Assembly: GCA_902626645.1 (NCBI GenBank)
Contig: CACOGC010000004.1
Span: 46,390-110,389 of the forward strand
Origin: an uncultured Pelagibacteraceae bacterium
GTDB lineage: Bacteria > Pseudomonadota > Alphaproteobacteria > Pelagibacterales > Pelagibacteraceae
Length of the DNA stretch: 64,000 nucleotides
Reading direction: 5' to 3'
Shown here: in pieces, positions 44,798 to 45,331 of the stretch
Layout of the letters: every line of letters starts with the position of its first letter
How positions within the stretch are numbered: the stretch's first letter is position 1
Made by a program: the position numbers and the translations under genes
The notes under the pieces: generated by a model
Databases searched by the model: none
Seen by the model: only the letters and a program-made list of their open reading frames with translations
Told to the model about the DNA's origin: nothing

Positions 44798-45244
44798 TTA
44801 TCTAATTTCGATTAGTTTTTTCTTCTTATGCTCAGGTACAATTCTCTCGCAAGATATTGTTAAAAGACCATCTTTGAGCTCGGCACCATTTACTTTAACG
44901 TCATCAGCAATTGTAAATGATCTAGCAAATTGTCTTTGAGATATTCCCTTATGAATGATCTCTCCATCAGCATTTTTATCCTCAGATTTATCAACTTGTT
45001 TTGTTCTTACAGTTAATAAATTATCTTCGAACTCAACCTCAACATCCTTTTTGTTGAAACCTGCTAAAGCAACTTCAATAGCGTAGTTATCTTTACCAGT
45101 CTTTCTGATGTTGTATGGTGGGTAATTGGATTGCATTGTCATTGCACCATTTCCCAACATATTCTCAAATTGATCAAACATATCGTCGAACCCAATCGAG
45201 AATGGTCTTAATGAGTTAAATATAGATAGATCCTTACTTGTCAT
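44798..45244 (-). CDS. ibpA: Small heat-shock protein Hsp20/IbpA (ORF track TTG start 45265; ATG 45244 with AGGAGG SD preferred)
   Basis: FDDMFDQFENML, YPPYNIRKTGKDNYAIEVALAGFNKKDVEVEFEDNLLTV, GISQRQFARSFTIADDVKV. Confidence 0.95.
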   Translation of the reverse strand: MTSKDLSIFNSLRPFSIGFDDMFDQFENMLGNGAMTMQSNYPPYNIRKTGKDNYAIEVALAGFNKKDVEVEFEDNLLTVRTKQVDKSEDKNADGEIIHKGISQRQFARSFTIADDVKVNGAELKDGLLTISCERIVPEHKKKKLIEIR

Positions 45245-45296
45245 ATATCCTCCTTTGTTAAGCAAGTTTATTTATAAGCCCCATTAGGCGACTTAC
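45245..45296 (-). ncRNA. Candidate ROSE-type RNA thermometer in hsp20 5'UTR
   Basis: Minus-strand RNA: hairpin UAAGUCGCC-UAAU-GGGGCUUA then CUUGCU-UAACAA-AGGAGG pairing the SD with an internal G.G as in ROSE elements, then AUG. Confidence 0.65.
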
Positions 45297-45303
45297 GTTT
45301 ATT

Positions 45304-45331
45304 ATGTAGGAACGATTTAAGTTTTTTCAAG
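45304..45331 (-). promoter_or_regulatory. RpoH (sigma32)-type promoter of hsp20
   Basis: Minus strand CTTGAAA (45331-45325), 14-nt spacer, CCTACAT (45310-45304). Confidence 0.65.

Follow-up and report, generated by a model that had tools for sequence, protein, structure and literature searches.

The window analysed here is a 64,000 nt stretch of DNA from the ~1.1 Mb genome of a SAR11 bacterium (Pelagibacteraceae), a member of one of the most abundant groups of marine bacteria and one which has kept few regulators. On the minus strand of the window lies hsp20 (44798–45244, with the ATG start codon at 45244–45242), which encodes a small heat-shock protein of 148 aa with a score above the cut-off for the HSP20 family (PF00011). 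No other HSP20-family gene was found in the genome assembly, and the nearest relatives of this one are from uncultured Pelagibacteraceae with protein identities of up to 100%. The hsp20 mRNA has a leader of ~53 nt containing two hairpins directly behind a heat-shock promoter, and we consider it very probable that this is a short two-hairpin ROSE-type RNA thermometer placed behind an RpoH promoter, which would open on heating. A 53 nt leader able to read temperature without a protein would suit the economy of SAR11, and it offers a concrete target for understanding how these bacteria sense warming.

The promoter consists of a –35 element of the RpoH (sigma-32) type, CTTGAAA (45325–45331, minus strand), and a –10 element, CCTACAT (45304–45310, minus strand), separated by a 14 nt spacer. 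Both elements are conserved in homologous upstream segments, where the family consensus is CTTGAAA/CCCATAT (the exact letters were chosen after the alignment had been inspected). At least 10 of the 14 positions of this heptamer pair are matched in 164/165 distinct upstream segments compared to 11% of shuffled segments, and at least 12/14 are matched in 78% compared to no shuffled segments, with the window promoter itself matching 12/14; the spacer is 14 nt long in 158 of the distinct segments. The family consensus is in agreement with that of E. coli sigma-32, CTTGAA-N13–18-CNCCATAT as quoted in PMC3669281, to which the window promoter also conforms. The RpoH-type promoter, CTTGAAA-N14-CCTACAT, which the original prediction placed before hsp20 is borne out by this degree of conservation and by the presence of an RpoH gene in the genome (TIGR02392, 363.6 bits, above the cut-off), and we infer that the hsp20 promoter is RpoH-dependent. 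The –10 element is followed by a variable 7 nt spacer of low conservation (45297–45303, minus strand), and the distance from the end of the –10 element to hairpin I is 7 nt in 139/164 segments. Because this distance is nearly constant, the phasing suggests that transcription would start at the foot of hairpin I, at or next to 45297–45296, and the whole 5' leader would then consist of the two hairpins.

Hairpin I (45274–45296, minus strand), GUAAGUC(g)CC-UAAU-GGGGCUUAU, was identified by folding and covariation and has nine pairs with a bulged G at 45289. A short A-rich linker joins it to hairpin II (45249–45266, minus strand), CUUGCUU-AACA-AAGGAGG, which was identified from the minimum-energy fold and from conservation, and in which an anti-SD strand faces the Shine-Dalgarno (SD) sequence AGGAGG (45249–45254, minus strand; recognised by sequence and by conservation in homologues). 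The anti-SD CTTGCT (45266–45261) contributes the pairs U-A, C-G, G.G, U-A, U.G and C-G, with G45263 and G45252 opposed, and in its extended form CUUGCUU (45266–45260) faces AAGGAGG (45255–45249). All of the elements named in the original prediction are present at their minus-strand positions, and the RNAfold minimum-energy structure of the 59 nt leader consists of exactly hairpins I and II (z = –2.3 for the folding energy, with 7/200 shuffles as good). The two-hairpin structure that had been proposed is therefore supported by the fold, but not the 6 nt loop given to hairpin II, as an extra U45260–A45255 pair reduces this to 4 nt.

Genome collections, together with whole genomes belonging to the genus and family, supplied hsp20 loci from which we obtained 170 distinct leaders in which the U(U/C)GCU motif and SD are kept in all but one (169/170). 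The segment running from the anti-SD to the SD differs in length and letters among homologues, and the SD core GGAG is constant. In the alignment used for covariation (A1, 82 leaders), 97.8% of the hairpin I cells are paired and double-sided changes are found at eight of the nine pairs. Across the structure as a whole there are 78 double-changed cells, each of them within hairpin I, compared to 18.2 ± 3.5 in shuffles, and the covariation score of 0.385 (0.221 in shuffles) was reached by 0/500 shuffles and is far above all of the slid controls; sliding the structure by one column costs much of its pairing. With non-SAR11 members added, the number of double-changed cells is 121 compared to 27, in an alignment which was fitted to the structure, and RNAalifold recovers hairpin I unaided. 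Hairpin II shows little covariation because one of its strands is the nearly invariant SD, and this hairpin is supported instead by an anti-SD that is conserved although its flanks vary. The alignment of relatives' leaders thus upholds the UUGCU/SD pairing and both hairpins of the original prediction, with strong covariation in hairpin I. Neither the bulged G nor the C-G pair above it (A1 columns 10–11 and 22) varies in any of the 82 leaders, and the hairpin I loop is near-constant; the invariant bulged G suggests that hairpin I is more than a clamp.

A covariance model built on the SAR11 hsp20 leaders only (R1) scores 71 bits at the window leader, with the next best matches at 14.4 bits in the 64 kb window and 20.6 bits in the whole genome. 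The other R1 matches in this genome are weak, and those inspected (L198, L199 and L200) head no long reading frame. The Rfam ROSE families behave differently with the window leader and with its relatives. No match was found in an Rfam scan of the hsp20 leader, even at E ≤ 10, or in a scan of the 64 kb window at the gathering score, and the positive control, E. coli ibpA, scores 100 bits with ROSE_2. In diverged relatives, ROSE_3/ROSE_2 matches lie exactly on the leader, at 21–23 bits (L137, L143 and L177), 28.6 bits (L208) and 34.5 bits (L214, E = 0.002). These span the whole models and at 21–34.5 bits fall below the gathering scores of 43 (ROSE_3) and 65 (ROSE_2), which it should be noted are cut-offs set for particular models rather than biological properties of ROSE elements. 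The comparison with Rfam ROSE/ROSE_2 by which the original prediction was to be judged is therefore negative for the window leader itself and positive, below threshold and on the same site, for its diverged relatives.

The leader nevertheless has the features by which ROSE elements are recognised, as the 3'-proximal hairpin contains U(U/C)GCU in an imperfect pairing with the SD that includes a G.G opposition, a stable hairpin is found 5' of the SD hairpin, and the element is positioned in the leader of a small heat-shock gene. We regard it as ROSE-like by anatomy and, judging by the intermediates, by descent or strong resemblance, and the compact two-hairpin ROSE originally predicted finds support in the conserved UUGCU/SD pairing, the covariation of hairpin I and the ROSE_3/ROSE_2 scores of the relatives. 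Rfam ROSE_3 (RF02523) is similar in having an 8-pair stem, a one-base bulge in the first hairpin at a position matching the SAR11 bulged G, three pairs (AUGCC...GGGU), and then CU(C/U)GCU...AGGAG, but differs in that the SAR11 relatives score below 43 and the window leader is unmatched. Rfam ROSE_2 (RF01832), which includes E. coli ibpA, shares a UCGCU/AGGAG core, a bulged upstream hairpin and a small heat-shock gene; however, the best SAR11 score is 22.8 bits compared to the 65 needed, and the SD hairpin in E. coli ibpA runs on into longer flanking pairs, unlike that of SAR11. The rhizobial ROSE (Bradyrhizobium hspA) is also alphaproteobacterial, associated with heat-shock genes and built on a U(U/C)GCU core, but has three to four hairpins (PMC3669281) where SAR11 has two.

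The closest known system is the short ROSE-like thermometer of Pseudomonas ibpA (PMC3669281), which has two hairpins in a 61–62 nt leader, a stable hairpin I, U(U/C)GCU paired with the SD in hairpin II, and a sigma-32 promoter (CTTGAA-N-CCATAT) before a small heat-shock gene. The layout of a two-hairpin ROSE combined with a heat-shock sigma promoter is therefore already known from this system, for which measurements have shown hairpin II to open on heating and hairpin I to be stable (PMC3669281). The SAR11 leader differs in being AT-rich, in having an SD hairpin without G-C closure on both sides, in the constant bulged G in hairpin I, and in the conserved complementarity of the anti-SD to codons 2–4. 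We found no report of SAR11 in connection with ROSE elements or thermometers in the open literature, and heat shock, hsp20 and ibpA go unmentioned in the main text of a study dedicated to finding structured RNAs in Pelagibacter (PMC2704228). Judged by its anatomy and homologues, the SAR11 hsp20 leader is a well-conserved addition to the known ROSE-like thermometers.

Similar leaders are found before hsp20, dnaK and rpoH in other Alphaproteobacteria. When R1 was searched against 337 alphaproteobacterial genomes and the gene behind each match was read, 15 non-SAR11 matches were obtained at E < 1e-3, including seven before hsp20, four before dnaK and one before rpoH, with two more rpoH leaders at E < 0.01. 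A second model with non-SAR11 leaders added (R2) was run on 385 genomes, and all 18 of the non-SAR11 matches at E < 1e-4 are before hsp20 (10), dnaK (5) or rpoH (3), most of which are in the training set of this model; matches from outside the training set are L239, L240 and L249 before hsp20, and L241 before dnaK. The dnaK leaders matched (L216, L217, L219, L220, L241 and L248) and the rpoH leaders (L222, L229, L233 and L242) come from several families, and several of them fold into these same two hairpins, in which the SD is sequestered. One further model match, L215, which lies before an ABC-F gene, was set aside as a terminator-like hairpin. There is thus a conserved alphaproteobacterial branch that escapes the Rfam ROSE models and that, in other orders, precedes the genes at the core of the heat-shock response, dnaK and rpoH. 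We found no report of ROSE on alphaproteobacterial dnaK in a search that covered mainly the open-access literature, and rhizobial rpoH genes may already be discussed in this connection in subscription papers. The two-hairpin ROSE-type element is absent from this genome's own dnaK and rpoH. We note that its dnaK, which lacks a ROSE leader, is closely preceded by an RpoH-like CTTGTAG-N14-CCTATAT, and that an SD-like GAGGAG directly behind the –10 may not be included in mRNA transcribed from this promoter.

In the mechanism we propose for hsp20, heat would first increase transcription from the RpoH promoter, with the mRNA starting at the foot of hairpin I. In a cool cell, hairpin I would serve as a stable 5' clamp keeping the downstream strand in register and the SD would be held within the weak helix of hairpin II, and on warming hairpin II would open, allowing the 30S subunit to bind and Hsp20 to be made; the anti-SD strand might also exchange onto codons 2–4. 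The heat-dependent melting, the control of translation and the role of hairpin I are what we infer from the leader. A nearest-neighbour melting calculation was uninformative in this respect because the known thermometer, E. coli ibpA, was as flat as the medians over all leaders. It might be argued that the leader is a conserved translation attenuator and not primarily a thermometer, with the SD hairpin tuning basal translation and hairpin I guarding the 5' end or binding a protein such as Hsp20 itself, as the invariant bulged G and near-constant loop exceed the sequence conservation that a plain clamp needs, and the E. coli Hsp20 protein IbpA is known to regulate itself. We think this improbable, since a U(U/C)GCU/SD helix containing a G.G is the hallmark of ROSE and is kept on hsp20, dnaK and rpoH across the class, and it should be noted that attenuator and thermometer roles are not mutually exclusive. 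The conserved block is also contiguous with the promoter, as would be expected of an operator or promoter element conserved at the DNA level and not as an RNA structure, but hairpin I stays paired through compensatory changes while its sequence changes, the distance between the anti-SD and SD is not constant, and a variable spacer separates the –10 element from hairpin I. On the strength of the compensatory changes in hairpin I we rejected a DNA operator in place of the RNA, an explanation to which we give hardly any credence.

The two-hairpin thermometer may, in addition, involve the start of the coding sequence. The predicted fold of the leader plus coding sequence divides between anti-SD:SD and anti-SD:codons 2–4, and as CUUGCUU was often paired with AAGUAAG in such folds, we went on to count synonymous changes in 145 distinct genes whose products begin with MTSKD, MTSRD or MTGKD, using a tree constructed from the rest of the gene. 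Codons 2–4, ACA AGU AAG (45233–45241, minus strand), which include the AAGUAAG complementary to the anti-SD CUUGCUU, are synonymously frozen, with 1, 0 and 0 synonymous changes, respectively, compared to a median of 16 over 119 codon columns. The next lowest columns have three changes, and the freeze is over at codon 5 with nine. Ser3 is AGT in all 142 genes with Ser at this position, and Lys4 is AAG in all 142 genes with Lys there, although Lys elsewhere is ~80% AAA. When synonymous codon sets are ranked by their pairing with the anti-SD, the chosen codons are in the top 1.4% (CUUGCUU variant) or 2.1% (CCUUGCU variant). We rejected a plain start-codon effect as the full cause of the freeze: the general trend is real, as the start-proximal Lys codons of the neighbouring permease used as a control are also frozen, but to AAA, so that a general effect exists without explaining AAG and AGT. 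In partition functions for the window leader plus 60 nt of coding sequence, heating from 0 to 45 °C is predicted to lower SD-pairing from 0.69 to 0.31 and to increase both coding-region pairing, from 0.12 to 0.51, and SD opening, from 0.23 to 0.52.

The anti-SD (C)CUUGCUU could therefore pair with either the SD in a closed state or with AAGUAAG(G) in codons 2–4, and warming might move it to the coding partner and so free the SD, or the coding-region helix might be a second closed state which loops out the start site. The synonymous counts and the abrupt end of the freeze at codon 5, the fixed AGT and AAG, the high rank of the codon set, the opposite choice made in the permease and the predicted shift for the window leader all favour such a second partner. 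However, constraint on start-proximal codons is general among SAR11 genes, AGC would give better pairing than AGT yet is never used, and the predicted populations vary with the leader variant and the length folded. The complementarity is also weak or lost in most of the deeper SAR11 lineages, one of which has UCGCU for UUGCU, and was not apparent on visual inspection of the non-SAR11 leaders. We consider a dual-partner thermometer to be quite possible but somewhat short of probable. We tentatively suggest that this might be a ROSE variant in which the anti-SD has two conserved and mutually exclusive partners, acting by strand exchange or as a double lock and constraining the coding sequence, and the frozen codons, as a second pairing partner, can be tested directly.

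Two further observations were made amongst the hsp20 leaders of other genomes. In three from one other alphaproteobacterial family (L209, L210 and L213), the RpoH-type promoter is replaced by an inverted repeat like TGTCATATTGACAT-TATGTCAATATGACA, located ~15–50 nt upstream of the leader, which is possibly a repressor operator. One genome from the SAR11 family has two hsp20 paralogues (L160 and L164), and the two-hairpin leader is found on both.
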